A stretch of DNA of 26,412 bases from a virus: positions 1-26,412 of IMG/VR virus record IMGVR_UViG_3300037071_000422; one strand, given 5' to 3'. Under the pieces are notes generated by a model, which had not been told where the DNA came from, searched no databases, and worked only from the letters and a program-made list of their open reading frames with translations. A program made the position numbers and the translations under genes. Positions 8,878-25,277 of this stretch are shown here, piece after piece. Within the stretch, counting starts at the first letter, position 1. Every line of letters begins with the position of its first letter.

Positions 8878-10773
8878 ATGGGCCGTATGCGCACCCCCGT
8901 TGCAGTGGAGACGACGAACTCTCTCGTAGCCTCTGCGGCCCGTGTCAACACAGCAACGTTCGCTGGTATCCAGCGGTACAACACCGGCACGGAATGGCAC
9001 AGCACTTCATGGCACTACTACCACACCATCGGTGAGTTCCGTTATGGCTGTGACTGGCAGGGCGCGATGCTCTCCAAGGCAATCTTGCGTGCGTCGAAGA
9101 AGGACCCGAGCACCGGCAACTACGACATCCTGTACGAAGGCCCCGCCGCCGAGTACATGGAAGACCTCTTCGGGGACGACGACGGACGCGCTGAGATGCT
9201 CCGTCTCATCGGCATCCACATGGCCGTCACCGGCAAATGCTTCGCCGTCACCTACCCCGACTTCGGAGAGTTCGCCGGAGACGACGACATCTGGAGGGTA
9301 GTCGCTTCCACGAAGCTGACCCGACCCTCATCCCCCACTGACTTCTACCGCATCGAGGGTGAGACGATCCCCCTCAATCCGAACAAAGTCGTCTGCATCG
9401 AAATCTGGCGACCGGACCCCGAGGACTCGAAGAAGCCAATCGCCCCCTCACAGGCAGTGCTCACTTCCCTCGGGCAGATCGAAGCGCTGGATCAGCACAT
9501 CGCCGCACAGGTGGACTCGCGTCTGGCCGGTGCAGGCATCATGCTCTTCCCGTCAGAGATGACGTTCCCGACCCCGCCTGTACCGGACGGGGCCGTTCAG
9601 CGTGTGGCCAACACAGCCGACGACCTCATGAGCATCATCCAGCACGCCATGGCCGTCGCCCTCCGCAACCGCGCCGATCCCGCGTCCAAGGTCCCCATTG
9701 TCATCACGGCCCCCGCTGAAGCGATCAGCGCGATCCACCACATCAAGTTCTGGTCCGACCTCGACGAGAAGGTCATCGAGATGCGGAACGCCGCTGTCGG
9801 TCGTCTCGCTCTTGGCATGGACATTCCCCCGGAAGTGCTGAAGGGCAACGGGGACGTGAACCACTGGGCCGCTTGGCAGTCCGACGAGTCGGCTATCAAG
9901 TCCCACACTGAGCCGCTCCTGAAGATCATCACTGCCGCTCTCGCGAAGGCGTACCTACGCCCGGCGCTGAAGGGCGAAGTCCCCGACGAAGACCTGCGGT
10001 ACTACTCCATCAAGGCGGACACGTCCGAGATGCGTCTGCGCCCGAACCGGGCAAAGGAAGCGATGGAGCTTTACGACCGTGGCGAACTGACGGGCAAGGC
10101 CCTGCTCCGCGAGACTGGCTTCGACGACGACGACGCTCCCAAGGACGAAGACACCAAGGCTTGGTACTTGAAGAAGGTCGCCTCCGGCCAGACCACCCCG
10201 GAACTGGTAGCCGCCGCGCTGAAGCAACTCGGCGTGGACCTGCCTGTGGCACCCGCCGCCGAAGTCGGGCAGGAAGCCCGGCCTACCCCGTCCCTCATCG
10301 GGCACCCGACTCAGGACATCCCCGACCGAGAGGTCAGCGAACGTCGCCGGGATGCACGGGATGTCGGCAACGTACCTTCCGCCGATCCTGCCCGGCGTGC
10401 CGCACCGCCCGAGTCTGCTTCACGGATGGCGGCGGCTGTCGCTGTCGCTTCCGAGCAGGCAGTGTTCCGGGCGCTGGAACGTGCAGGCAACCGTATGCGG
10501 AACAAGATGGGCGGCAAGCTCCCCGGCATCTCAGCGGGAGAGACGTACCTGACCTTCGGTTCCTCCGCGTCGGACCTCGACTACTTCCTCGAAGACGCTT
10601 GGGGCGAGAACGTCATCGCCCTCGCGGCCCACTGCGGGTACAGCACTGAGCAACTGAAGGACGCTCTCGACGGCTACTGCCGCGTACTGCTGACCTCACA
10701 GAAGCCGCACTCTTTCAAGAGTCTGGAGAATCACCTGACCATGGCGCTCCGTCTGGAGAGGACATCACTATGA
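8878..10773 (+). CDS. Portal protein
   Basis: This 631-aa protein lies directly after the terminase block and overlaps the MuF fusion gene by 4 nt (ATGA). It forms the dodecameric ring at the unique capsid vertex through which DNA is packaged and ejected. The body (about 20-440) has portal-type segments, including an AQVDSRLAGAGIMLFPSE stretch near residue 210 and a long helical region (SAIHHIKFWSDLDEKVIEM), followed by a Pro/Arg-rich linker (about 455-530) and a C-terminal helical domain (about 535-631). The extended C-terminus is longer than in minimal portals. The assignment is based on gene order, length and resemblance to actinophage portals. Confidence 0.85.
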   Translation: MGRMRTPVAVETTNSLVASAARVNTATFAGIQRYNTGTEWHSTSWHYYHTIGEFRYGCDWQGAMLSKAILRASKKDPSTGNYDILYEGPAAEYMEDLFGDDDGRAEMLRLIGIHMAVTGKCFAVTYPDFGEFAGDDDIWRVVASTKLTRPSSPTDFYRIEGETIPLNPNKVVCIEIWRPDPEDSKKPIAPSQAVLTSLGQIEALDQHIAAQVDSRLAGAGIMLFPSEMTFPTPPVPDGAVQRVANTADDLMSIIQHAMAVALRNRADPASKVPIVITAPAEAISAIHHIKFWSDLDEKVIEMRNAAVGRLALGMDIPPEVLKGNGDVNHWAAWQSDESAIKSHTEPLLKIITAALAKAYLRPALKGEVPDEDLRYYSIKADTSEMRLRPNRAKEAMELYDRGELTGKALLRETGFDDDDAPKDEDTKAWYLKKVASGQTTPELVAAALKQLGVDLPVAPAAEVGQEARPTPSLIGHPTQDIPDREVSERRRDARDVGNVPSADPARRAAPPESASRMAAAVAVASEQAVFRALERAGNRMRNKMGGKLPGISAGETYLTFGSSASDLDYFLEDAWGENVIALAAHCGYSTEQLKDALDGYCRVLLTSQKPHSFKSLENHLTMALRLERTSL

Positions 10774-13520
10774 TCCGCAAGGACAGCTTCGCGGTAGAGA
10801 CTGAGAGCTTCGCTTCCAAGCGCAAGACCCAGCTTGAATCCACGGACGACCGACTGCGCTCACATGTGCGGGAGGCGCTGACCCGTGTCGGCCTGCCGTC
10901 TTGGACCTCCCAGATTGTGCGCGAGGCTCTGTCTGTCTTCGACGAGATTGCCCGTGAAGAAATCGAGGAGTGGGGTCCGGGCCTTGACGAGATGCGCAAC
11001 GAGTTCGAGCGCGAACTGACCGAAGCCCTTGCCCTCACCAAGAAGGTCGAGAAGGACAAGTTCGACGCTCAGGTTGAGCGCGTCACCCGGTGGGTCAGCA
11101 CCATGTCCATCAACTCCGCGACCGAAGCCGCGACCACCACAGACCCCGACCCGATGGTTGGGCTGGAATGGGTCACGATGGAGGACGAAGCGGTTCGAGC
11201 CACCCATAAGGAAGCGCACGGCCAGCAGGTTCGCACCGGCAAGCCGTTCAAGGTTGGCGAAGTGGAGATGCTGTACCCCGGCCAGCCCGTAGGCGACCCG
11301 GCGAACTGGATCAACTGCCGCTGTGTCGCACGCCCGGCCATGCTCAACGAATCCCTCACGGCGTCCATCCCCACGGAAGCGGCTGAACCGATCACCTCGA
11401 CCGTGATCGTCGCACTGCCCAAGGCGACGGACCCGGCATCAACAGCGTCCTCGGAAGAATCAGGAGCGCACGTCACACTGCTGTTCCTCGGGGAGTCTTC
11501 CGAGTTCGATCCCACGGACATCAAGGCTGAACTGGAGGCTTACACCACCACGTTTGCCGGGGGTCCGTTCTCAGAGAACGTGTCAGGCAGGGCCACCTTG
11601 GGCGAGGGGCACGCAGATGTGGTCCTGCTTGACGCCAAAAACCTCGCGAACATTCGCGGGGCCATCCTCGCGTCCGAACCCGTCCGTGCACGTCACGATC
11701 AGGTCGAGCAGTATCCGACGTGGATTCCTCACCTTACGCTGGGCTACCCGGAGACTCCGGCTAAGGCCGAGTTCGCTGGTGAGGCTATCGAGTTTGACCG
11801 GCTGGCCATATGGCACGGCGAGGAACGTACCGAGTACCCGCTTGCGGGAGAGGTGGCAGTTGTGGGAGAGAGCAAGCCTGACGAGTTCGCGGTGAAGGAC
11901 GAGATGCCCGTGCCCGAGGAAGAGGTAGCTGAGGACGGTGAGCCTACGTGGATTCCCGACGAAGAGGCCATGATTCAGGTCCCCTTCCACGGCATCGCCG
12001 CGCCCGAAGGTATCCCCTCCGGCGACAAGCGCATGTTCGCTATCGGTTCCCTCATCAACCGGCCACTCCCTCTCTCGCTGAAGTCCATGTTCATCGACGA
12101 TGAGGGCCACAAGGGGTCGGTCATCTCGGGCCGCATCGACAACATCTGGCGCGAAGATGGCGTTATCAAGTACGAGGGCGTCTTCGACGTTGGTGAGGCC
12201 GGGTACGAAACCGTCCGCCTCATTGCTGACGGCATGTGGCGCGGCGTCTCCGTGGACGTGGATCAGGCCACTGGCGGACCCACACCTGACGGCGGCGTTG
12301 AGTACACTCAGGCACGCATCAGCGCCCTCACGGTCTGCGCCATCCCCGCCTTCGCGGAAGCGTACATCGCACTCGGGACTTGGGCCGACGCCGAAGAGGA
12401 GACGACCGAAACTCCCGTAGTTACAGGAGAAACGGTAGACGCCTCGGGCGAGAAGATCAGCTTCGAGGTAGTTCCCCCGAAGACGAAGGACGGTCCCGGC
12501 TGGATCACCAACCCGAACCCGACGAAGGACATCACTTCGTACTGGGTCACGGGTGTTGGCCGGGCGAAGATTGGATGGGGCACGCCGGGAGACTTCAACC
12601 GTTGCCGGATGCAACTCGTAAAATACGTCCAGAACCCCGATTGGTTGGCCGGGCTTTGCGCCAACCTCCACTACCGCGCTCTCGGCACTTGGCCCGGACG
12701 CGGCGCACATGCAGGAGGCATCGTTGCGATGAAGATGGATGAACAGGCCGAACTGCCTTCGGTCAATCTGACGGCTTCCGCCGCGCTTGCCCTTACTGCG
12801 GTCAGCGCGGACTACTTCCGTCGCATGGAGTTCAGCGCTCCGACAGCAATGACCATCGAGGAGGATGGGCACGTCTTCGGACACCTCGCCCAGTGGGACT
12901 CTTGCCACATCGGGTTCCCCGACAAGTGCACCTCTCCCCCGCGCTCGATGACCAACTATGCGTACTTCCTCACCGGGGAATACCTGACCGACGCCGGGCG
13001 TGTACCTGTCGGACAGATCACCCTCGGCACCGGACACGCTACCGAGCGCATGGGTATGCGTGCCGCACTCGCGCACTACGACAACACCGGCTCAGCCGTT
13101 GCAGATGTCACGGTGTGGGAGGACGAGTTCGGCATTGCGTTCTCCGGCAAGCTCCGTGAAGACCTGCCTGAGAAGGACATCCGGGCGCTCATGGCGTCTC
13201 CGCTGTCTGGCGACTGGCGCGGTGTGATCGTTGCCGGGTCTGAGAATCTGGAGATGTGTGCGGCCCTCGCCGTGAACGTGCAGGGCTTCGCTGTCCCCCG
13301 CGTTTCGTTCGCGATGGAAGGCGATCACCAGCTTTCGCTTGTGGCCGCTGGCGTACTCGAACCGAAGCCGATTCTGACGCCGGAGTTCATGGCGCAGATG
13401 GAGGCGTTCAAGGCGCACGAGCAACGCAAAGCCCGGCTCGCAACACTGAGGGCCGAGCGCAATTCTTTCCGTGCAGGAGAGGTCAAGGCGAAGATCAGGA
13501 AAGCTATGGAGGAGAAGTAA
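10770..13520 (+). CDS. MuF-like head protein / 2H phosphoesterase / capsid maturation protease fusion
   Basis: This 916-aa multidomain head protein follows the portal gene with an ATGA overlap. Residues 1-195 are MuF-like (head morphogenesis), ending in the family's D-x-x-x-W-I-N-C-R-C motif (GDPANWINCRC). Residues about 205-370 contain the two H-x-T-x boxes of the 2H phosphoesterase superfamily: AHVTLLFLG (H234, T236) and PHLTLGY (H321, T323). Residues about 390-540 resemble a prohead protease, with candidate catalytic His in GHKGSVISGRI and Ser in RGVSVDVD. The remainder holds a segment common in actinophage proteases (GWGTPGDFNRCRMQL) and a further alpha/beta region. MuF-protease fusions are known in actinophages; the embedded 2H domain is the odd part. 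The gene also contains operator-like copy 2 at 12410. Confidence 0.85.
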   Translation: MIRKDSFAVETESFASKRKTQLESTDDRLRSHVREALTRVGLPSWTSQIVREALSVFDEIAREEIEEWGPGLDEMRNEFERELTEALALTKKVEKDKFDAQVERVTRWVSTMSINSATEAATTTDPDPMVGLEWVTMEDEAVRATHKEAHGQQVRTGKPFKVGEVEMLYPGQPVGDPANWINCRCVARPAMLNESLTASIPTEAAEPITSTVIVALPKATDPASTASSEESGAHVTLLFLGESSEFDPTDIKAELEAYTTTFAGGPFSENVSGRATLGEGHADVVLLDAKNLANIRGAILASEPVRARHDQVEQYPTWIPHLTLGYPETPAKAEFAGEAIEFDRLAIWHGEERTEYPLAGEVAVVGESKPDEFAVKDEMPVPEEEVAEDGEPTWIPDEEAMIQVPFHGIAAPEGIPSGDKRMFAIGSLINRPLPLSLKSMFIDDEGHKGSVISGRIDNIWREDGVIKYEGVFDVGEAGYETVRLIADGMWRGVSVDVDQATGGPTPDGGVEYTQARISALTVCAIPAFAEAYIALGTWADAEEETTETPVVTGETVDASGEKISFEVVPPKTKDGPGWITNPNPTKDITSYWVTGVGRAKIGWGTPGDFNRCRMQLVKYVQNPDWLAGLCANLHYRALGTWPGRGAHAGGIVAMKMDEQAELPSVNLTASAALALTAVSADYFRRMEFSAPTAMTIEEDGHVFGHLAQWDSCHIGFPDKCTSPPRSMTNYAYFLTGEYLTDAGRVPVGQITLGTGHATERMGMRAALAHYDNTGSAVADVTVWEDEFGIAFSGKLREDLPEKDIRALMASPLSGDWRGVIVAGSENLEMCAALAVNVQGFAVPRVSFAMEGDHQLSLVAAGVLEPKPILTPEFMAQMEAFKAHEQRKARLATLRAERNSFRAGEVKAKIRKAMEEK
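12410..12431. promoter_or_regulatory. Palindromic operator-like site, copy 2 (inside the MuF/protease gene)
   Basis: The sequence ACTCCCGTAGTTACAGGA shares 17 consecutive bases (CTCCCGTAGTTACAGGA) with copy 1 at 200-216. It lies within the coding frame, where it encodes T-P-V-V-T-G. No promoter-like pair surrounds it. The same orientation relative to transcription as the other copies suggests a stoperator-like or roadblock role, but a purely coding explanation for this copy cannot be excluded. Confidence 0.45.
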
Positions 13521-13796: not shown

Positions 13797-15500
13797 ATGG
13801 GTAAGAAGTTCACAGCCCCAGAGAATGTCACCGAACTTGAGGGCGAAAAGCTCCAAGAATCAATCGAAGCCGCGCTTGCCGCTCTCGCTGAAGTCAGCGA
13901 CGAAGCTACCGACGAGGAACTGACTGAAGCAGAGGCAACTCTCGCTTACGTCAACGCCGCACGGAGCGAAGTCCAGAACCGCGAAGCCGTAGAGCAGGCC
14001 CGTGTTGACCGCCTCGAAGCCATCCGTGCCGCATCCAAGCCGGAAGAGAAGGCAGACGAAGCCGAAGCCCCCGCCGCTGAAGTCGTCGAGCCTGTCGTTG
14101 AAGCTCCCCCGGCCCCCGTGGTCGAGGAGAAGGTCGAGGAGAAGGAACTGGTATCGGCCAGCGCCAAGACTGAGACTGCATCTGTTCAGAAGCTCAGCAC
14201 CGCTGAGAAGATCGCATCCCAGCAGAAGGAGACTCCCGTGAAGAAGGAGTTCCCGCGTGCCAGCCTTGTTGCCGCCGCAGGCAACACCGAGTTCGCATCC
14301 GGGCATCAGTTTGCCAACCTTGCCGAAGCAGGCCCCGCCCTGTTCAACCGGCTCGACAACCTGCCGCACCGCGCCGCACCCAAGGGTGTCTCCATGCGCA
14401 ACGGCGCTCTCCAGTTCAAGCTCCCGGCATCTGAGTTCACTCAGACTGCGCTGGACGAATCTGAACTGCTTCAGAAGGTCGCCAAGGAAGCGCGTCTGGA
14501 AGGTGGTTCCCTCGTCGCCGCTGGTGGCTGGGGTGCTCCGTCCGAGCGTTCTCTCGACTTCTGCGTGCAGGAAGAACTGGACGGTCTGATCCAGCTTCCC
14601 GAAATCCAGATCACCCGTGGCGGTATTTCTTACACCAAGGGTCCGACCTTCGCCTCGGTGCTTGCATCCGGCACGGGTTTCTGGGACATGACTGAAGCCA
14701 CCGCTGAAGCCGGTTCGGAACAGAAGACCTCCCTCCGTCCCTCCGTCCCGACGTTCGTCGAACAGCGTCTCGACGCTGTGGGTGTGATGGTCGAAGCTGG
14801 CCTCCTGCTCCGTCAGGGCTGGCCGGAACTGGTCGAGCGCTACGCCGCTCTGGCCCTGAAGGCTCACCAGTACAAGCTGAACCAGAAGAAGATCGCGCAG
14901 ATTCAGGCGTTCACGGGTGCGGCGACCAACATCGCCACCGGCTTCGGCAACGAACTCGACATCCTGCACGTCATGGAACTCGTCGCTGAAGGCGAGCGCC
15001 AGCGCAACTTCCTCGGCACCGGGCAGACCCTCGAAGCGATTGCTCCGAGCTGGGCACGCGCAGTTATGCGTGCAGGTCTGGCACAGCGGAACGGCGTTGA
15101 CTCGATCAGCGTCACGAACGCACAGCTTGATGCTCACTTCACCGCACGCGGTGTGCGCGTCCAGTGGCTTCGCGGCTATCAGGATATGCCTCTGGCATCC
15201 GGTATCGCCGTGACCTACCCGGACACCATCGAGTTCATCATGTACCCGGCTGGTACCTACGTCGCTGGTGTGGCTCCGGTCATCACCCTCGATACGGTCT
15301 ACGATTCCGTCAACCTGAAGAAGAACGATTACGTTCACCTCTTCGTTGAGCAGGGCGTACTGATGACCAACCCGTGTGGCGAAGGTCGCCGCATCACCCT
15401 GCCGTTCCTCGCCAACGGTCGCCGTGCCGGTGTCACTGACGCCGTAGCCACCGCAGGCCAGAACGACAACCTCTTCAACACCGCAGTCGCCAACACGTAA
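13797..15500 (+). CDS. Major capsid protein, HK97 fold, with fused N-terminal scaffold domain
   Basis: This 567-aa protein forms the icosahedral shell. Residues 1-155 are Ala/Glu/Val-rich, charged and low-complexity (EEKVEEKELVSAS region), the signature of a fused scaffolding delta-domain normally removed by the head protease encoded just upstream. The capsid part follows: GGSLVAAGGWGAPSE (236-250), an actinophage capsid hallmark; RGGISY (274-279); TGFWDMTE; then the P- and A-domain regions up to the conserved FVEQGVLMTNPCGEGRRITL near residues 517-536. ATG 13797 is fixed by AAGGAGAGA at normal distance. A hairpin terminator follows within 10 nt of the stop. A short piece of this protein is repeated in the gene at 1736. 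Confidence 0.92.
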   Translation: MGKKFTAPENVTELEGEKLQESIEAALAALAEVSDEATDEELTEAEATLAYVNAARSEVQNREAVEQARVDRLEAIRAASKPEEKADEAEAPAAEVVEPVVEAPPAPVVEEKVEEKELVSASAKTETASVQKLSTAEKIASQQKETPVKKEFPRASLVAAAGNTEFASGHQFANLAEAGPALFNRLDNLPHRAAPKGVSMRNGALQFKLPASEFTQTALDESELLQKVAKEARLEGGSLVAAGGWGAPSERSLDFCVQEELDGLIQLPEIQITRGGISYTKGPTFASVLASGTGFWDMTEATAEAGSEQKTSLRPSVPTFVEQRLDAVGVMVEAGLLLRQGWPELVERYAALALKAHQYKLNQKKIAQIQAFTGAATNIATGFGNELDILHVMELVAEGERQRNFLGTGQTLEAIAPSWARAVMRAGLAQRNGVDSISVTNAQLDAHFTARGVRVQWLRGYQDMPLASGIAVTYPDTIEFIMYPAGTYVAGVAPVITLDTVYDSVNLKKNDYVHLFVEQGVLMTNPCGEGRRITLPFLANGRRAGVTDAVATAGQNDNLFNTAVANT

Positions 15501-17658: not shown

Positions 17659-17670
17659 CGTGGCATTATG

Positions 17671-17706
17671 GAAGGCGGGGGTCTATGATCCCCGCCTTCT
17701 TTTTTT
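17671..17706 (+). terminator. Canonical intrinsic terminator
   Basis: GAAGGCGGGG (17671-17680) pairs perfectly with CCCCGCCTTC (17690-17699) around a 9-nt loop, followed by seven T (17700-17706). It begins 12 nt after the stop of the PKD gene. Its T-run abuts the ribosome binding site of the endolysin gene (AGGAGAGA at 17707-17714), so no promoter fits between them. Confidence 0.9.
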
Positions 17707-17721
17707 AGGAGAGACGAACCA

Positions 17722-19557
17722 ATGAGCTACCTTCAAGCACACACTGCTGATCTGCGGGTCAGTCAGGCGTTCGGGACCAATCCCGGTGGCCTGAATCCCG
17801 CTGGCGGTCATACTGGCAAGGACATTGCCGGTCCCATCGGCACACCCGTCTACGCGGCGTGCGATGGCATCATCGAAATCGCCGGTAACGCCGGGCCTTG
17901 GAACACGAACCGGTTCTGGATCGAAGGGTCCATGGCTGGTATCTCTGTCGTTCTGAACGACCCGAATCCGGGCGGCGCGGCATTCACCTATAACCACCTG
18001 TCCCGAGTCAACGTGAAGGTCGGCCAGCGCGTAAGTCGCGGCGACATCATTGCGTGGATCGGGAGCACTGGGGCATCGACTGGACCTCACGACCACTTTG
18101 AGTGCCTGCCGGATAAGTGGAACTTCCAGAACGGAACGTACGGGCGCATCAACCCGGACATTCTGTGCAAGGACTACCCCGGCACCCTTGGTAACGCTGG
18201 TGGTGTGGCACCCCCGAAGGGCCGCTATGTCGGCAAGAACTCCAACGTGAACCAGCGTGCCGCCGCGCACATGGACGCCGCTGTTGTACGGACGATCCCC
18301 GCAGGCCAGCTTGAAATCTGGGAGGGCTACGTTCACGGCCAGCCCGTCACTGTCGGTGGCCTGACTACGGACATCTGGTATCAGGACAAGCTGGGCTTCG
18401 CATGGTCTGGCGGCTTCGAGTCCCAGTCCACCACTGGCCTCCCTGACCTGACTCCCCGCGAGAAGCCCCTTGAAGCGAACCAGCGCAAGGCCGGTCCCAA
18501 GGGCGCTAACCAGCGCCGGGAGCCGAATGTTGACGCGACGATCATCCGGTTCGTGCCGGGCGGTCAGGTCGAGGTCTTCACGGGCTTCGTCAAGGGCCAG
18601 CCTGTCACCGTGGATACCTTCACGTCTGACATCTGGTACGTGGATGCCAAGGGCTACGTCTGGTGCGGTGCTTTCGAGAACCCGTCAGTCGTCGGCCTGC
18701 CTGACCTTACTGTGGTCGAGCCGCCGAAGCCGCCCGTCGTTGTGCCCCCGGCTGAGGAGCTTGGGCCGCACATGAACGGCATCGACGTTGCGAAGTATCA
18801 GGAAGCCGCGTCACTGAACCTGATCCCGGCAGAGTTCTACATCATCAAGGCGTCCGAAGGTGGGGCGAACTGGGCTGACTCTGCGCTGGAATCGAACGTC
18901 GCTGAGGCACGCCTGACCGGCAGGCCGATTGGTTTCTACCACTACGCCCGGCCTTTCGTCACGGAAGCCAACACGGCGGCGGAAGAGGCACGGTCGTTCC
19001 TTGCTGTCATCAAGCCGTACATGCGGAAGGGCGACATCCTCGCACTCGACTGGGAGGCTGAGAACCAGCACCGCACTGACTGGGCGCTGGAGTGGCTCAG
19101 GATCGTCCAGAAAGAGACGGGTGCCCTCCCGTTCATCTACATCAATACGGCGACCCTGACGGCCCACGCAGAGGCTTGGGGTCCTGTGGAGCAGGAGTTC
19201 CCTCTCTGGCTTGCCGCGTATGGCACGAATCAGGCTGGCGGTTATGATCCGCGTAAGCCTGCTTTCCCGGTCGAATGGGCCGCTGGCTTCCTCATGTGGC
19301 AGTACACGTCCAAGGGTCAGCTTGACCACTATGACGGCGATCTTGACCTGAATGTCTTCTACGGCACGCAGGCTGAGATGCTGGCGCTCGGCGCGACGAA
19401 GCTCCTCGCGGAGCCGGAAGTGCCACCCGTGACGGAACCTGAGCTTCCGCCTGTTGTCGATCCTGAGGAGCCTGACGAGGAGACTGCGGCGGACCTGATC
19501 CGCGAGTACCAAGAGTGGCTTCTGGAGAAGTTCCTGTCTGAGCGCGGGAAGGTCTGA
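17722..19557 (+). CDS. Bifunctional endolysin: M23 peptidase, two SH3-like repeats, GH25 muramidase
   Basis: This 611-aa lysin has two catalytic domains. Residues 1-155 are an M23/LytM-type zinc endopeptidase with H-x3-D (H30, D34) and H-x-H (H123, H125). Residues about 170-250 and 255-335 are two related SH3-like repeats (shared patterns GQPVTV, SDIWY and GLPDLT) that should bind the cell wall. Residues about 350-555 are a GH25 muramidase (GIDVAKYQ near 353, GFYHYARP, LALDWEAEN with D443/E445, LMWQYTSKGQL). A Pro/Glu-rich linker and a charged helix close the protein. There is no signal peptide. The gene follows a terminator directly and has no adjacent holin. It cuts both peptide cross-links and glycan strands; a virion-associated role is an alternative. 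Confidence 0.9.
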   Translation: MSYLQAHTADLRVSQAFGTNPGGLNPAGGHTGKDIAGPIGTPVYAACDGIIEIAGNAGPWNTNRFWIEGSMAGISVVLNDPNPGGAAFTYNHLSRVNVKVGQRVSRGDIIAWIGSTGASTGPHDHFECLPDKWNFQNGTYGRINPDILCKDYPGTLGNAGGVAPPKGRYVGKNSNVNQRAAAHMDAAVVRTIPAGQLEIWEGYVHGQPVTVGGLTTDIWYQDKLGFAWSGGFESQSTTGLPDLTPREKPLEANQRKAGPKGANQRREPNVDATIIRFVPGGQVEVFTGFVKGQPVTVDTFTSDIWYVDAKGYVWCGAFENPSVVGLPDLTVVEPPKPPVVVPPAEELGPHMNGIDVAKYQEAASLNLIPAEFYIIKASEGGANWADSALESNVAEARLTGRPIGFYHYARPFVTEANTAAEEARSFLAVIKPYMRKGDILALDWEAENQHRTDWALEWLRIVQKETGALPFIYINTATLTAHAEAWGPVEQEFPLWLAAYGTNQAGGYDPRKPAFPVEWAAGFLMWQYTSKGQLDHYDGDLDLNVFYGTQAEMLALGATKLLAEPEVPPVTEPELPPVVDPEEPDEETAADLIREYQEWLLEKFLSERGKV

Positions 19558-19559
19558 CC

Positions 19560-20054
19560 GTGACGACTGTGACGGCGACTCTCGAAGAGGTGCTTGGGGA
19601 CGCGGCGAGAGGATACCTGCTGTTCACTCCTACCACTTCGTGGGACGAGCCGACAGACTTGGGTAATCTCCCGCTCCCCCAGCGGGTGAAGCTGGTGAAC
19701 GGTTCGGTTTCGGTGGAGCTTGATCCCACCGGGCCGGGCTGGGCATGGGCTGTCACGTATCAGGTGCTCGGGTTGGAGCACTGGACCGAGTATTACATCG
19801 TGCCGGATACGGGTACTGTCAGCCTCGACTCGCTCACAGAGGTGGACATCAGGACCCTGACTCCGACCGTCGATGAACCCGACCCTGCTTGGTACGGCTA
19901 CGTTGACTCCGTGGTTGAGGGGCAGGTAGGGCGCGTAGTTGTTGTGACCGGTACGGAAGCGAGGCCCGGCTTCGGGTCAGTGTTCTGGATCGGCGGCACA
20001 ACGCAACCGGTAAACATGGCTGAGAACACGGACGTTTGGTTCAAGGCGACGTAA
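19560..20054 (+). CDS. Tail-region structural protein, unknown
   Basis: This 164-aa protein has GTG 19560 two bases after the endolysin stop. It is beta-rich (VSVELDPTGPGWAWAVTYQV, IVPDTGTVSLDSL) with Trp/Tyr residues, consistent with a small fibre, baseplate or decoration subunit. Its residues 6-75 resemble small beta-sandwich units seen at the start of phage fibre genes. No enzyme motif is visible. The position between endolysin and a common actinophage structural protein supports a virion role. Confidence 0.65.
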   Translation: MTTVTATLEEVLGDAARGYLLFTPTTSWDEPTDLGNLPLPQRVKLVNGSVSVELDPTGPGWAWAVTYQVLGLEHWTEYYIVPDTGTVSLDSLTEVDIRTLTPTVDEPDPAWYGYVDSVVEGQVGRVVVVTGTEARPGFGSVFWIGGTTQPVNMAENTDVWFKAT

Positions 20055-20091: not shown

Positions 20092-20529
20092 ATGGCCGTA
20101 ACAGCCAACCTCTACGGGCTTTTCCTGAAGTCCCTCGCGAACAAGGAAATCGACCTCGATACTGACACCATCAAGGTCATGCTCACTACCTCGGCATACA
20201 CGCCGAATCAGGACACGCACCAGTACAAGTCCTCTGTCACCAACGAGGTCAGCGGCACGGGCTACACCGCTACTGGCGCTACCCTCGGCTCCGTCGCTGT
20301 CACCTACGACACTGCGACGAATACCCTGAAGTTCGACGCGGCTGACACCTCGTGGGCCTCATCGACTATCACGGCACGGTACGCGGTCATCTACGACGCA
20401 AGCCCGGCATCCGACGCTACCCGGCCCCTGATCGGCTACGTCGATTTCGGCGCGGACGTTTCCTCGACGGCGGCGGCTTTCACAATCACATGGGATGCCG
20501 CAGGCATCTTCACAATCACGGCGGCGTAG
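20092..20529 (+). CDS. Actinophage structural protein, probable minor tail/head component
   Basis: This 145-aa protein has a strong ribosome binding site (GAAGGAGAGAC) before ATG 20092. It is beta-rich and Thr/Ala/Ser-rich, with a recognisable order: an N-terminal helix (LYGLFLKSLANKEIDLDTDT), VMLTTSAYTPNQDTH, and a C-terminal strand pattern (AAFTITWDAAGIFTITAA). Proteins of this length and layout occur widely in actinophage structural operons, with no assigned function. The stop is followed 6 nt later by the secreted-enzyme gene. Confidence 0.75.
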   Translation: MAVTANLYGLFLKSLANKEIDLDTDTIKVMLTTSAYTPNQDTHQYKSSVTNEVSGTGYTATGATLGSVAVTYDTATNTLKFDAADTSWASSTITARYAVIYDASPASDATRPLIGYVDFGADVSSTAAAFTITWDAAGIFTITAA

Positions 20530-20535
20530 GGACAA

Positions 20536-22785
20536 ATGAAATACAAAGGGACGAAAGCGATGACGGCTGTCATCGCATTACTGGTGCTGATCGCTGGCTT
20601 CTTCGTAGCTGGCACAGCGCAGGCGGTGGGCACTACGGTGCTCACCCCCACTGCCGACACATACGTGCAGGCAGACAAGCCCACAGAGAACTTCGGAGAG
20701 AGCGTCCGATGGTCCACTGAGGGCCGGGCCAATATCTGGCGTCACTCACTGCTCCGCTTCAACGCGGTAGTGCCTGAGGGCGAGAAGATCGTGTCGGCCA
20801 AGCTCCGGGCGTACAGCGAATCCACGATTCCGGCCACGGAGTTCGTCGATGTCTACGGCACTACGGGTGCTTGGACTGAGAGCGGCGTCAACTGGAACAA
20901 CGCCCCAGCGAAGGGCACATGGCTCGGGAAGCAAGGCGGGTTCTCCGTTGATTCTTGGGTCGAGTGGGACGTGACTAGCTGGGTGGGCGCTAACGGCGGC
21001 TACACCAACTTCAAGCTCGAAACCAACGCCCAGCGGTGGACGGGATTCAAGTCCAGCGAACACCCCACCGTTGCACTGCGCCCCCAGCTTGTCATCACGA
21101 CTGAGGCCACCGGCACCACACCTCCTCCCACCACCCCACCTCCGGCTAGCGACGGCACCACTGCCGCATCTACGCAGGGCTGGGGCGCTGTAGTCACGGG
21201 CGACGAGTTCAACTACACGGGCGCACCGCAGGCCACGAAGTGGGATGTCTACGACAGTGCCGGGCACGCTGGCAACGGCGTGCGCTCTCCCGCGCAGGCA
21301 ACCGTTGACGGCACCAAGCTGGTTATCAACGGCACCGCCGATGGTACGACTGCCGGGCTGTCGGCTAAGTTCGCGAACCAGAAGTACGGACGCTGGGAAT
21401 CCCGCATTGCGGCTTCCGGCGACAACGAGTACCACATGGTTTCGATCCTGTGGCCTGACTCGGGCAACTGGCCTTGCGACGGCGAGCTTGACTACGCCGA
21501 GACGACCGGGGACTGGAACGTAATCCAGTTCTTCCAGCACTACTCCTGCTCCAACACGCAGACGAGCGCGAGCAAGGCCATCGACGTGACGCAGTTCCAT
21601 AACTACGCCGTTGACTGGTCCCCCACTGGTGTTGTCGGTTACATCGACGGCGTTGAGTGGTTCCGCGATGAGGTCCCCGCACATCAGCCTCCGGGTTCGA
21701 TGCACCAGACGCTCCAGCTTGACTGGTTCCCCGATGCTACGGCTGACGGTACCGGCGAGATGCGGGTTGACTGGGTGCGCGTTCACGCGGCGGCTACTGC
21801 CCCGACTCCGACGCCTACGCCTACCCCGACTCCGACGCCTACGACGCCGCCTACTGGTGGTTCGTTCGACTTCGCAACCGTTGGTGACATGAACCCGTCC
21901 GGTCACTCTGCGGCCACCACCGAGTCTGGCAAGAACGCCATCAGCATCAAGAACGCGCTGGCCTCGGGTGAACTGGATGCCTTCATCGGCCTCGGTGACT
22001 TCCAGTACAGCATCGGCCACTGTGGACTCTCCGGCTCATCGAATCCGGCGAACGACAACTACTCGAAGTACAACACACAGTGGGGGCCGTTCAAGGACAA
22101 GACGTACTGGACTGCCGCACCGAACCATGATTACCAGCCGGGCCGCAACACTGACCTCGACGACTACATGGACGGCGGTTGCGTCAACACTGTGAAGAGT
22201 GCCACGAGCACCGATCCGACACGTCAGGGTCCGAACCCTGCCGGGACGCATCAGGAGAACGACAACTGGTACTCCATCGACAAGGGCAACTGGCACATCC
22301 TGTTCGCCCCGTCGAACCTGTGGCGCTACGACGTTGCCAAGGCAAACGCGGCAACGGGCCAGATGGACGCGAACCTTGCGGCGGCTAAGGCGGCTGGCAA
22401 GCACCTCGCGGTTGTTGTGCACGATCCCTACTTCACGTCGAGTACGAGTTCACACACGCGCTCGACTGAAATCAAACCGTGGATCGACGTGTTCTGGAAG
22501 AACCGGGTCAAGGTCCTGTTCTCCGGTAGCCAGCACAACTACGAGCGGTCCTGCCCTGTGAACAACGCAGACCAGTGCGTATCTGACGGTATGCAACAGT
22601 TCCAAGTTTCCACTGGCGGCATCACACTGCGCGACTTCACCAGTAACCCGGCGTACATCCAGAAAAAGTTCACCGGAACTTGGGGCCACCTCCGCATGTC
22701 CCTGAACGACAACGGCTCGTACTCTTGGAACTTCGTTCCGACTTCGGGCAACATGTCGAACACCGACAGCGGTACACGGCAGTAA
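20536..22785 (+). CDS. Secreted DNRLRE - GH16 - metallophosphoesterase protein
   Basis: This 749-aa protein begins with a clear Sec signal peptide: basic KYKGTK, a hydrophobic core, and cleavage after A-Q-A at residue 30. Residues 31-190 form a DNRLRE/CBM96-type beta domain (ADTYVQADKPTENFGE, RHSLLRF, VDVTSW-type ending). After a Pro/Thr linker, residues 205-415 are a GH16 glucanase-like domain with the intact catalytic motif ELDYAE (E317, D319, E322). A second linker, PTPTPTPT-type (encoded at 21800-21852), leads to a metallophosphoesterase domain (445-735) with GD (450-451), GDFQY (487-491), PNHD (529-532), H629 and SGSQHNYER (663-671). The architecture is that of secreted actinobacterial enzymes rather than of typical tail proteins. 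It may act on host polysaccharide during infection or after export by the host. Confidence 0.8.
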   Translation: MKYKGTKAMTAVIALLVLIAGFFVAGTAQAVGTTVLTPTADTYVQADKPTENFGESVRWSTEGRANIWRHSLLRFNAVVPEGEKIVSAKLRAYSESTIPATEFVDVYGTTGAWTESGVNWNNAPAKGTWLGKQGGFSVDSWVEWDVTSWVGANGGYTNFKLETNAQRWTGFKSSEHPTVALRPQLVITTEATGTTPPPTTPPPASDGTTAASTQGWGAVVTGDEFNYTGAPQATKWDVYDSAGHAGNGVRSPAQATVDGTKLVINGTADGTTAGLSAKFANQKYGRWESRIAASGDNEYHMVSILWPDSGNWPCDGELDYAETTGDWNVIQFFQHYSCSNTQTSASKAIDVTQFHNYAVDWSPTGVVGYIDGVEWFRDEVPAHQPPGSMHQTLQLDWFPDATADGTGEMRVDWVRVHAAATAPTPTPTPTPTPTPTTPPTGGSFDFATVGDMNPSGHSAATTESGKNAISIKNALASGELDAFIGLGDFQYSIGHCGLSGSSNPANDNYSKYNTQWGPFKDKTYWTAAPNHDYQPGRNTDLDDYMDGGCVNTVKSATSTDPTRQGPNPAGTHQENDNWYSIDKGNWHILFAPSNLWRYDVAKANAATGQMDANLAAAKAAGKHLAVVVHDPYFTSSTSSHTRSTEIKPWIDVFWKNRVKVLFSGSQHNYERSCPVNNADQCVSDGMQQFQVSTGGITLRDFTSNPAYIQKKFTGTWGHLRMSLNDNGSYSWNFVPTSGNMSNTDSGTRQ
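21800..21852 (+). repeat. Direct repeat encoding the Pro-Thr linker
   Basis: A 24-bp unit beginning CCCCGACTCCGACGCCTACG at 21800 is repeated at 21824. It encodes a PTPTPTPT linker between the GH16 and phosphoesterase domains. Such repeats grow and shrink by slippage. Confidence 0.8.
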
Positions 22786-22806: not shown

Positions 22807-24507
22807 GTGGCTATTACCTTCACCGCAGGTACATCCGTTGAGTCAACGGCTAGCGTAACCACAGCAACGGTTGCGCTAGCCGCTGGCATGGCGGCTGGGG
22901 ATTACACGATTTGCGTTGTGTCACTGAACGCCAGCACGGGCACCATCGACACGCCTGCCGGGTGGACTGAAATCCTCCCAGACACTCAGGCCACGGCGTC
23001 CACGTCGATGACCCTCGCCATCTTTTACCGCAAGTGGGTGTCTGGCGACGGCGACGTTGTTGTCACTCATAAGAGCGGTCGATCCGCCGCAACAACTATC
23101 CGTGTCCGGGGCGCTGACGCAACAACCTTCATGGATGTGGGGGCCACGGTGACGCAAGCCGCCGCCGCCGCGACCACAATCGTAGCGCCGACGATCACGC
23201 CTACAACCGGCTGGCTGGTCTGTGTATTCGCCGGGCGTCACCCGACCAACGGCGGTATCATCACGCCGTTCTCCAGTCTCTCCGCTGGCATGACCTCGCT
23301 TGCCGAAGCCTCAGCGCAAGCCCCCACGCAGACCAATGCCGGGCACCTGATCGCCTATCAGGCTGTCACGCCGTCCTCAGCCACGGGCACCCGGCAGGCT
23401 GACCCGAACGTCTCCACTACCGGCGCTATGGGCGTCTCGTTCTCTCTGGTCGAAGCCGCGTCCGGTGGACCCGGCAACGTCACTGCCGTCAAGGCGACTG
23501 CTACCTCTCAGGAGGGAACTCCCGTAGTTACGGGACAAGCGAACATCGTCCATGTGAAGGCGTCGGGCACCGCAACGGACATCGTGCCGGTGGTCACTGC
23601 CGCCGCTACCGTGACAGGGGTACGGGCGCAGGGTAGCTCTCTGGCCCGTGTGCCTGTTGTCGTTGGCGCTCAGACTGCTACGGTCGCCGCTGTCAGGGCG
23701 CAGGGTTCTTCCTCTGCTTCCGCCCCGGTAGTCACGGCGCTGGCTACTCTGGCCGCTGTCAGGGCGCAAGGCTCATCGTTGGCCATCGCTCCTGCCGTGC
23801 TTGGCGCTAAGACCGCCTCTGTCACAGCCGTACGCGCTCAGGGTTCCAGCCTCGCCGTTCCGCCTGTCGTTGTGGGTGGTGCCGGGGCTACTGCTGTCGC
23901 GGCTCAGGGTTCCTCTGCGGCTGTCGCTCCTGCTGTTTCAGCGTTGGCCAGCGTCACGGCTGTCCGGGCGCAGGGTACGTCCCTCGCTGTTCCTCCTACC
24001 GTCACTGCCGCCGCCTCAGCCACGGTTGCTTCCCCCGCGATGTTGGCGACAGCGACCGGTATGGAGCCGTTTGTCAGCGGTGGTGGCCCGGCGAACATTG
24101 ACGCCGTACCAGCAACAGCCACGGCTGACCTCCGTAACCCTGTGGTTAGCGCCCCGGCCACTGTCGCCGCTACGAAGGCCAGCGCATCGACGGCCATGCC
24201 GGAGCCTGTTCCGTCCAGCGCAGTCACCATCCAGTCAGTGCCATCAGCGGCGGCGGCGGAAGCTCAGGCCCCGGTCCCTTCGGTCCTCGTCGTCATGGTG
24301 GCGGTCAGCATGGTGGCCACGGCGCTCCACCACGCACCAACCTTCAACCTCGAAGCCATTACCGCCGCCGTGGTGGCTACTGCAACTGCGCTCGCGCTCC
24401 GACCGTCGCTGAAGGGTGACATAGAGCTGTACCTGAAAGATGGAACGTTGGTGCACCCGCACATACTAATCGGCGGCATACTTGTTCCAGTGGACTCACA
24501 ATTCTAG
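22807..24507 (+). CDS. Repetitive fibre-like structural protein
   Basis: The GTG at 22807 follows AAGGAGATG at normal distance. The 566-aa product has an N-terminal beta domain (residues 1-218), with VTTATVALAAGMAAGDYTIC and AGWTEILPD motifs of the kind found on phage fibre and surface proteins. From about residue 220 to 530 there are roughly 14 imperfect repeats of 22-24 residues, each of the form AVRAQGSSLAxxPVV followed by a short Ala/Thr/Val spacer, best preserved at 270-400. This periodicity suggests a beta-helical or collagen-like extended shaft. The final 35 residues (KGDIELYLKDGTLV, then HPHILIGGILVPVD) form a small C-terminal cap. Likely a tail fibre or head fibre for host attachment. 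Operator-like copy 3 lies in the first repeat. Confidence 0.7.
   Translation: MAITFTAGTSVESTASVTTATVALAAGMAAGDYTICVVSLNASTGTIDTPAGWTEILPDTQATASTSMTLAIFYRKWVSGDGDVVVTHKSGRSAATTIRVRGADATTFMDVGATVTQAAAAATTIVAPTITPTTGWLVCVFAGRHPTNGGIITPFSSLSAGMTSLAEASAQAPTQTNAGHLIAYQAVTPSSATGTRQADPNVSTTGAMGVSFSLVEAASGGPGNVTAVKATATSQEGTPVVTGQANIVHVKASGTATDIVPVVTAAATVTGVRAQGSSLARVPVVVGAQTATVAAVRAQGSSSASAPVVTALATLAAVRAQGSSLAIAPAVLGAKTASVTAVRAQGSSLAVPPVVVGGAGATAVAAQGSSAAVAPAVSALASVTAVRAQGTSLAVPPTVTAAASATVASPAMLATATGMEPFVSGGGPANIDAVPATATADLRNPVVSAPATVAATKASASTAMPEPVPSSAVTIQSVPSAAAAEAQAPVPSVLVVMVAVSMVATALHHAPTFNLEAITAAVVATATALALRPSLKGDIELYLKDGTLVHPHILIGGILVPVDSQF
23517..23538. promoter_or_regulatory. Palindromic operator-like site, copy 3 (inside the fibre gene)
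   Basis: This is the best palindrome of the four: CCCGTA-GT-TACGGG (23521-23534) is perfect in both arms. It encodes T-P-V-V-T-G in the first fibre repeat, and later repeats use different codons for the same residues (for example GTAGTCACGG at 23729-23738), so the exact sequence is not required by the protein. Confidence 0.5.
23620..24010 (+). repeat. Degenerate tandem repeats of the fibre shaft
   Basis: Units of about 66-72 bp begin with variants of GTCAGGGCGCAGGGTTCTTC (for example 23691, 23757, 23829 and 23958) and encode the VRAQGSSLA motif. Divergence of silent positions shows the array is old and maintained at protein level. Confidence 0.7.
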
Positions 24508-24515
24508 GAGACGTA

Positions 24516-25277
24516 ATGAGCGCAACATGGCCTATTGACTGGCCAACGAATGTGGACATCACGCAGAGCGACCCGTACCACGTCCAGATCGCGGAGGAGA
24601 TGGCTTCGGCCACGCTTCGTCTGCTCACCCTGTACCGGGTTGGAGGTCTGCCGATCACCGTGATGCCGTGCACCGGGACGTGCGCGTTCCCCACACTGCC
24701 GTTCTCCGGCCCGGCACAGTCGGGGCACAGCTACCTGCCGTTCTACCCGATCCTGCTGGCCAGCGGCGCGTACGCGAACTGCTTCTGCGCAAGCTCCTGC
24801 CAGTGCGAGGGACGCAGTGAAGTTCTGCTCGGCACACCGGTTGGCCGGATCGACGATGTGAGCATCAACGGTGTCACGCTCGATCCCTCCGCGTACCGGG
24901 TGGAGAACGGCAACATACTCGTGCGTGTTGACGGCGGCGAATGGCCCGCCTGCTCCGGCGACAACTTCACCGTCACCTACCTGAACGCCTACGAGGTGGA
25001 CGTTCTTGGGCAGGCCGCTGGCGGTGTGCTCGCGGCTGAGTACCTGAAGCTGTTCGGCCCGTCTGCGGCGAAGTGCCGCCTCCCCCGTGGCGTCACCTCG
25101 ATCACCCGACAGGGTATGCAGTTCGAGGTCAGCGCTGGAATGTTTCCGAATGGCGTCACGAACATCCCCGAGGTGGACGTGTACATTGCGCAGTGGAACC
25201 CCCACGGTATGCGGACCCGCCCCATGGTGTACTCGACGGACTTGCCGCCGCACCGCTCAGTTAGCTGGAGGCCGTAG
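24516..25277 (+). CDS. Head-to-tail connector (adaptor-like) protein
   Basis: This 253-aa protein has a ribosome binding site (AGGAG) that overlaps the previous stop. The N-terminal segment (YHVQIAEEMASATLRLLTLY) is a helix typical of phage gp15/gp6-like adaptors. The middle carries a Cys-rich loop (ANCFCASSCQCEG), and the C-terminal half has strand-rich VGRIDDVSINGVTLDPSAY and RVENGNILVRV segments. The same type of protein, with the Cys-rich loop, occurs in many actinophages immediately upstream of the tail terminator genes. It would join the portal to the tail. Moderately confident. Confidence 0.75.
   Translation: MSATWPIDWPTNVDITQSDPYHVQIAEEMASATLRLLTLYRVGGLPITVMPCTGTCAFPTLPFSGPAQSGHSYLPFYPILLASGAYANCFCASSCQCEGRSEVLLGTPVGRIDDVSINGVTLDPSAYRVENGNILVRVDGGEWPACSGDNFTVTYLNAYEVDVLGQAAGGVLAAEYLKLFGPSAAKCRLPRGVTSITRQGMQFEVSAGMFPNGVTNIPEVDVYIAQWNPHGMRTRPMVYSTDLPPHRSVSWRP

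Follow-up and report, generated by a model that had tools for sequence, protein, structure and literature searches.

The window analysed here, the 26,412 nucleotides (positions 1 to 26,412) of IMG/VR virus record IMGVR_UViG_3300037071_000422, carries among its virion genes a gene for an enzyme with the appearance of a secreted protein, and this raises the question of why a phage would encode such an enzyme at such a place. A signal peptide on a phage structural protein had been found puzzling in the initial annotation, and export by infected cells and capture of a host gene as cargo had been offered as possible explanations, with breakdown of matrix or glucan and removal of teichoic acid phosphates as candidate functions. 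Both are pursued below from the domains of the enzyme, its genomic setting and its relatives in phages and bacteria.

Table 1. Coordinates of the enzyme gene, its domains and the neighbouring features in the window.
Feature	Coordinates	Strand	Evidence
Secreted CBM96-GH16-metallophosphoesterase, whole gene	20536..22785	+	Domains; host homologues end to end, 64-67% identity
Predicted Sec signal peptide, residues 1-30, predicted cleavage AQA/VG (before V31)	20536..20625	+	Sequence
CBM96/DNRLRE, residues 34-189	20635..21102	+	Pfam PF24517 9.6e-27; NF033679 7.4e-27
GH16 domain, residues 205-418	21148..21789	+	Pfam PF00722 3e-7; PDB beta-1,3-glucanases 5e-15 (profile search)
PAP-like metallophosphoesterase (MPE), residues 444-749	21865..22782	+	hhalign and PDB profile matches; GSQHNYER replaces GHxHxYER
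Strong terminator-like hairpin with 14 pairs and a T-run, separating the major tail gene from the lysin	17670..17700	+	Consensus match only
Endolysin (M23 + GH25), heads gene run	17722..19557	+	Pfam, PHROG profiles
Small minor-tail-like protein, opens insertion	19560..20054	+	phrog_17931 and phrog_6614, tail
phrog_644 small virion-like protein, just upstream of enzyme	20092..20529	+	PHROG; L004 equivalent at same place
Fibre/minor-tail-type protein, 566 aa, next after enzyme	22807..24507	+	Conserved 220-aa N-domain + variable repeats
Head-tail adaptor	24516..25277	+	PHROG; adjoins lysin in four relatives examined

Domain architecture and export signal

The open reading frame is real, keeps its originally annotated boundaries, starts with ATG and encodes 749 amino acids, with proline/threonine linkers connecting the domains (Table 1). 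The three domains previously proposed were all recovered, two of them by matches above curated cut-offs: CBM96/DNRLRE scored 94 bits with both the Pfam model (cut-off 26) and the NCBIfam DNRLRE model (cut-off 34), and the GH16 match in Pfam, spanning residues 271–414, reached 30.5 bits (cut-off 22). The catalytic motif ExDxxE of GH16, likewise said to be intact, is present as ELDYAE at residues 317–322 (nt 21484–21501) and as EIDYAE in the phage copy L004. The C-terminal domain matched no Pfam model, PF00149 included, and was identified by profile comparison, which linked it to metallophosphoesterases of bacteria (hhalign, 99.8% over 234 columns) and, in a profile search of the PDB, to purple acid phosphatases (PAPs; 1.1e-4 and 1.6e-4). 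AlphaFold2, run on an input of three near-identical sequences, gave pLDDT values of 39 for the MPE domain and 34 for the full protein.

Alignment demonstrated that of the seven PAP metal ligands (D, D, Y, N, H and GHxH), as established for the enzyme from kidney bean, six positions are kept, namely Asp451, Asp488, Tyr491, Asn530, His629 and His667. At the seventh, Ser665 replaces the first histidine of GHxH. All aligned bacterial copies have the motif GSQHNYER, which makes the unusual metal site a trait of the family, and degradation of the site through phage decay was for this reason rejected. The MPE domain is, judging from these positions, PAP-like and not a canonical purple acid phosphatase, and is best regarded as a putative phosphatase.

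The full Sec signal peptide of the initial annotation was confirmed, with a lysine-rich n-region, a hydrophobic core and, in the c-region, a cleavage site of the AxA type ahead of Val31. A simple signal-peptide rule was passed by the enzyme alone among the 18 ORFs of the window tested, and by 20% of shuffled sequences. In view of this weak shuffle control, the stronger evidence is that different yet equally typical signal peptides start L004, the further phage copy L006 and the host homologues, so that the signal peptide is kept as a feature; between phages these peptides are only 36–44% identical, against 72–86% for the mature domains, and all remain typical. Secretion of the enzyme is thereby well supported at the level of sequence, and export by infected cells, one of the explanations offered at the outset, gains support from signal peptides kept in three phages despite their changed sequence; the infected cell presumably does secrete the enzyme. 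The position of the gene among virion genes, together with the GH16 domains that tail-type proteins carry in other viral contigs, could also be taken to mean that the enzyme is a virion component despite its signal peptide, attached to the tail or head as an appendage and taken along into the next infection. That is very improbable, as every copy starts with a typical signal peptide, the architecture is shared from end to end with secreted proteins of the host, and no virion-attachment or tail-type domain was found in the enzyme by Pfam and PHROG profile searches. An export signal without an attachment domain is the reverse of what marks a virion-borne tail depolymerase.

Gene neighbourhood and copies in other phages

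The window represents a soil phage with a genome like those of Arthrobacter phages; in the region of the capsid gene it is 72–76% identical in DNA to AWGoat, Tank, BruhMoment and SilentRX. The major tail gene is followed by the terminator-like hairpin, the lysin, two small virion-like genes, the enzyme, the fibre-like gene and the head-tail adaptor. The four genes between lysin and adaptor (minor-tail-like, phrog_644, enzyme and the 566-aa fibre-like gene, whose product had no PHROG match) form an insertion that is absent from all four Tank-like relatives examined, where the head-tail adaptor comes immediately after the lysin. Location inside a structural operon, as originally described, therefore holds for the position of the gene, which lies among tail, lysin, fibre and adaptor genes, but not for its product, which is no structural protein; once the gene is seen as cargo beside structural genes, its signal peptide is no longer puzzling. 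Because the strong terminator-like hairpin separates the major tail gene from the lysin, the enzyme gene belongs to the lysin-headed gene run, and the gaps of just 6 nt to the upstream gene in the window and of 14 and 7 nt in two other phages leave no space for a promoter of its own. Elsewhere in the window, residues 232–365 of a 916-aa head protease/morphogenesis protein (10770–13520) resemble the phage RNA ligase family phrog_2659 (7e-9), and a 318-aa ORF of the early region (1637–2593) has a weak match (2e-4) to the major head family phrog_777, besides the full major head gene at 13797–15500.

Relatives in IMG/VR are a full-length copy in L004 (78% identity) and copies in L005 and L006, which are identical to each other over the compared stretch and 81% identical to the window enzyme over the shared part. 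The viral relatives were located via short peptide patterns, and the three phages are thus a lower bound. Among 50,697 records of sequenced phages no close relative was found, save a CBM-type match in a Listeria phage. In L006, where the gene has tail genes on one side and an M23-amidase lysin on the other, CBM96 and MPE are kept and GH16 is missing, which makes the phosphoesterase the constant catalytic part and GH16 optional. The phage backbones differ, L004 having terminase phrog_9 and portal phrog_104, and the host of the three phages, judged from their relatives only, is probably of Arthrobacter type. Among the three copies dN/dS is 0.13–0.18 at a dS of about 1 (NG86), the motifs are intact and GC3 fits phage composition. 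The enzyme gene is kept by selection in phages. An assembly chimera was rejected on the grounds of independent contigs and this selection signal. The view that a host gene was caught accidentally, with no benefit to the phage, or that the arrangement is an assembly artefact, is hardly credible: its metagenomic origin is all that speaks for it, and it is opposed by three independent metagenome contigs, a single clade and a phage-like composition, and largely refuted by selection.

In all three phages the gene next after the enzyme is of the fibre/minor-tail type and of one family, its L004 product matching minor tail phrog_13352 at 8.6e-33. The N-domain of the fibre-like protein in the window (22807–24507) also has a relative at the C-terminus of another secreted metallophosphoesterase of Arthrobacter (L103, L105; 33–36% identity, phmmer 3e-18), a module common to phage fibres and host secreted enzymes. 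The adjoining fibre-type gene, the late gene position, the constant phosphatase and the glycan-binding module would all suit modification of receptors, in which the exported enzyme would strip phosphate or glycan from the wall of its own cell and so block superinfection or the binding of progeny to debris. This explanation is improbable, as the host itself makes the enzyme, so that a receptor would need to survive the host's own copy, and these phages have no known receptor.

Host homologues and recurring combinations with phosphatases

The three-domain secreted protein is also encoded on chromosomes of Arthrobacter, Pseudarthrobacter and Actinotalea. A scan of 84,980 genomes with GH16 returned 271 relatives of up to 80–81% identity, the best 80 of which belong almost all to Arthrobacter, Pseudarthrobacter, Sinomonas and Pseudonocardia. 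At seven loci the relative is a three-domain protein with 64–67% identity over the aligned length (one of them, L041, read from an internal start), and other loci encode CBM96-GH16 proteins, GH16-MPE lipoproteins or GH16 alone. In some Arthrobacter GH16-MPE lipoprotein paralogues (L038, L044, L046, L052 and L053), E-[IV]-N-Y-A-E replaces ExDxxE, a substitution that may change catalysis by GH16. Of 198 genomes sampled from the host genus, 56 contain the MPE family, as do, at a stricter cut-off, just 3 of 396 genomes drawn from the order to which the Actinotalea genome belongs; neither set contains an MPE more than 77% identical.

Phylogeny of each domain against host proteins, as had been advised, placed the phage copies in one clade both in the MPE tree (99/99), outside the Micrococcaceae copies and near that of Actinotalea, and in the CBM96 tree (96/94), and placed the phage GH16 domains at the base of the Arthrobacter clade, without resolution. 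Such trees support one capture from the Arthrobacter lineage, followed by exchange between phages. The bacterial copies as prophage genes were considered and rejected, the flanks of L023, L025 and L027 being, by eye, conserved chromosomal genes. Full-length host homologues, phylogeny and absence from the four Tank-like relatives are what is expected of host-derived cargo; a host origin of the gene, as suspected initially, is well supported by these comparisons.

Arthrobacter couples CBM96 with three phosphatase folds: the MPE of the window type, the PF04185 phosphoesterase (L162; L163 alike) and phytase. The Arthrobacter plasmid pAD51 (L022, 2462–4699) carries a secreted CBM96-fn3-phytase, and in one Arthrobacter genome a gene for a secreted CBM96-PF04185 phosphoesterase (L174, G172:C11:488000-503000, 9405–12106) is convergent with an adjoining gene of the MPE family. 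Two further viral contigs encode a signal peptide, a PF04185 phosphoesterase, the fold of which is unrelated to the window MPE, and GH16 in one protein; the fusion in L140 (2776–4293) adjoins lysin and holin, and that in L141 (5047–7077) lies between a GH25 lysin and a long repeat protein. Since the GH16 domains of both fall among other Arthrobacter GH16 branches, the combination of phosphatase and GH16 was probably gained more than once. GH16 related to that of the window also occurs inside long proteins without a signal peptide in other viral contigs (L143, L145, L146, L148 and L149), those of L146 and L149 matching minor-tail families.

Taken together, the constant MPE, the pairing of CBM96 with phosphatases, the PF04185-GH16 fusions and the GH16 of tail proteins point to a phosphorylated extracellular glycan as the putative substrate, and to phages encountering it on the cell surface or in the matrix. 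These clues are compatible with dispersal, phosphate or receptor control alike as the gain. The main rival of a glycan-loosening role is the acquisition of phosphorus (and carbon), in which the exported phosphoesterase would free organic or polysaccharide-bound phosphate and GH16 would open the polymer, feeding phage DNA synthesis in poor soil. It is suited by the phosphoesterase being the part kept in all three phages and, as release of phosphate would be, by the joining of host-genus CBM96 to PF04185 phosphatase and phytase as well as MPE, and glycan hydrolases of soil phages are commonly read as auxiliary genes (PMC9485262). It remains doubtful: the position in a lysin/fibre run predicts expression that is probably too late to supply phosphate for DNA synthesis, and related GH16 domains are found on tail-type proteins of other viral contigs.

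Proposed role and comparison with known systems

The preferred explanation, which in our estimation has an even chance of being correct, is that the enzyme is a captured Arthrobacter-lineage protein, made late, exported by Sec and free of the virion, that loosens phosphorylated glycan around host cells. It builds on the domains, signal peptide, host origin, single phage clade, purifying selection and recurring phosphatase and GH16 combinations, all well supported by the comparisons above; the late expression, substrate and benefit that we infer would follow this course. A gene for a secreted multidomain phosphoesterase of the Arthrobacter lineage would have been captured by an actinophage and then spread among unrelated phage backbones. 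The enzyme would be made late, from the lysin/fibre gene run, exported by the infected cell via Sec, and would remain free of the virion. CBM96, the founding member of which binds alginate (PMC9971899), would bind a surface or matrix glycan, GH16 would cut a backbone of the beta-glucan type, and the PAP-like domain would remove phosphate or phosphodiester substituents. Just before and after lysis this would loosen the polymer that surrounds the host and neighbouring cells, or clear decoy receptors, and progeny could spread. A cell-surface substrate fits the occurrence of related GH16 domains in minor-tail-type proteins of other viral contigs. Against this explanation stand the serine in place of one PAP metal ligand throughout the family and the absence of GH16 from L006, by which glycan cleavage is not essential.

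Selection in at least three phages suggests that phages gain from a free enzyme acting on glycans outside the cell. More tentatively, and with less than even confidence, it is proposed that actinophages have on repeated occasions equipped the cells they infect with an exported, virion-free phosphatase-plus-GH16 that would strip phosphorylated surface glycan at lysis. Such an enzyme would correspond to a tail depolymerase in soluble form, derived from the host secretome and kept beside lysin and fibre genes. If this is true, infected cells act on the surrounding matrix for the benefit of the phage, which bears on phage spread in soil aggregates. The enzyme also offers a testable handle on the role of the Arthrobacter CBM96-phosphoesterases, a family common in its genus.

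Phage depolymerases have mostly been studied as parts of tails. Like them, the window enzyme is a candidate glycanase with its gene among tail genes, and its GH16 domain has relatives in proteins of minor-tail type on other viral contigs; the enzyme differs in being predicted to be exported and in having no recognisable virion anchor. Its closest counterparts are the secreted CBM96-GH16-MPE proteins of Arthrobacter and Pseudarthrobacter (Arthrobacter sp. Soil764, L023; A. agilis, L024), with the same domain order, a signal peptide, GSQHNYER and 64–67% identity; these, however, are chromosomal and, in the trees of MPE and of CBM96, are not part of the phage clade, whereas the phage copies lie in late gene runs on three backbones, one of them without GH16. 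Purple acid phosphatase-like MPEs share profile similarity and six of the seven metal-ligand positions, and are set apart by the first histidine of GHxH, which is serine throughout the window family, and by its lack of a PF00149 match. The papers searched contain no description of a three-domain secreted protein of this kind or of recurring phosphatase and GH16 cargo. Phage-borne glycan hydrolases as such are already known, and the window enzyme is host-derived cargo of which the action may resemble that of a soluble depolymerase. The soil viral chitosanase V-Csn (GH75), a polysaccharide hydrolase read as an auxiliary gene (PMC9485262), is similarly a host-type enzyme encoded between viral genes of a soil virus, but has another fold and substrate, the window enzyme having three domains of which the phosphoesterase is constant. 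The levan-acting GH32 enzymes of Bacillus phages SP10, phiNIT1 and SPG24 (PMC4595243) are also glycan hydrolases of extracellular type, acquired from bacteria and proposed to act on biofilm matrix; they are reported without a signal peptide, whereas every phage copy of the window enzyme has one.
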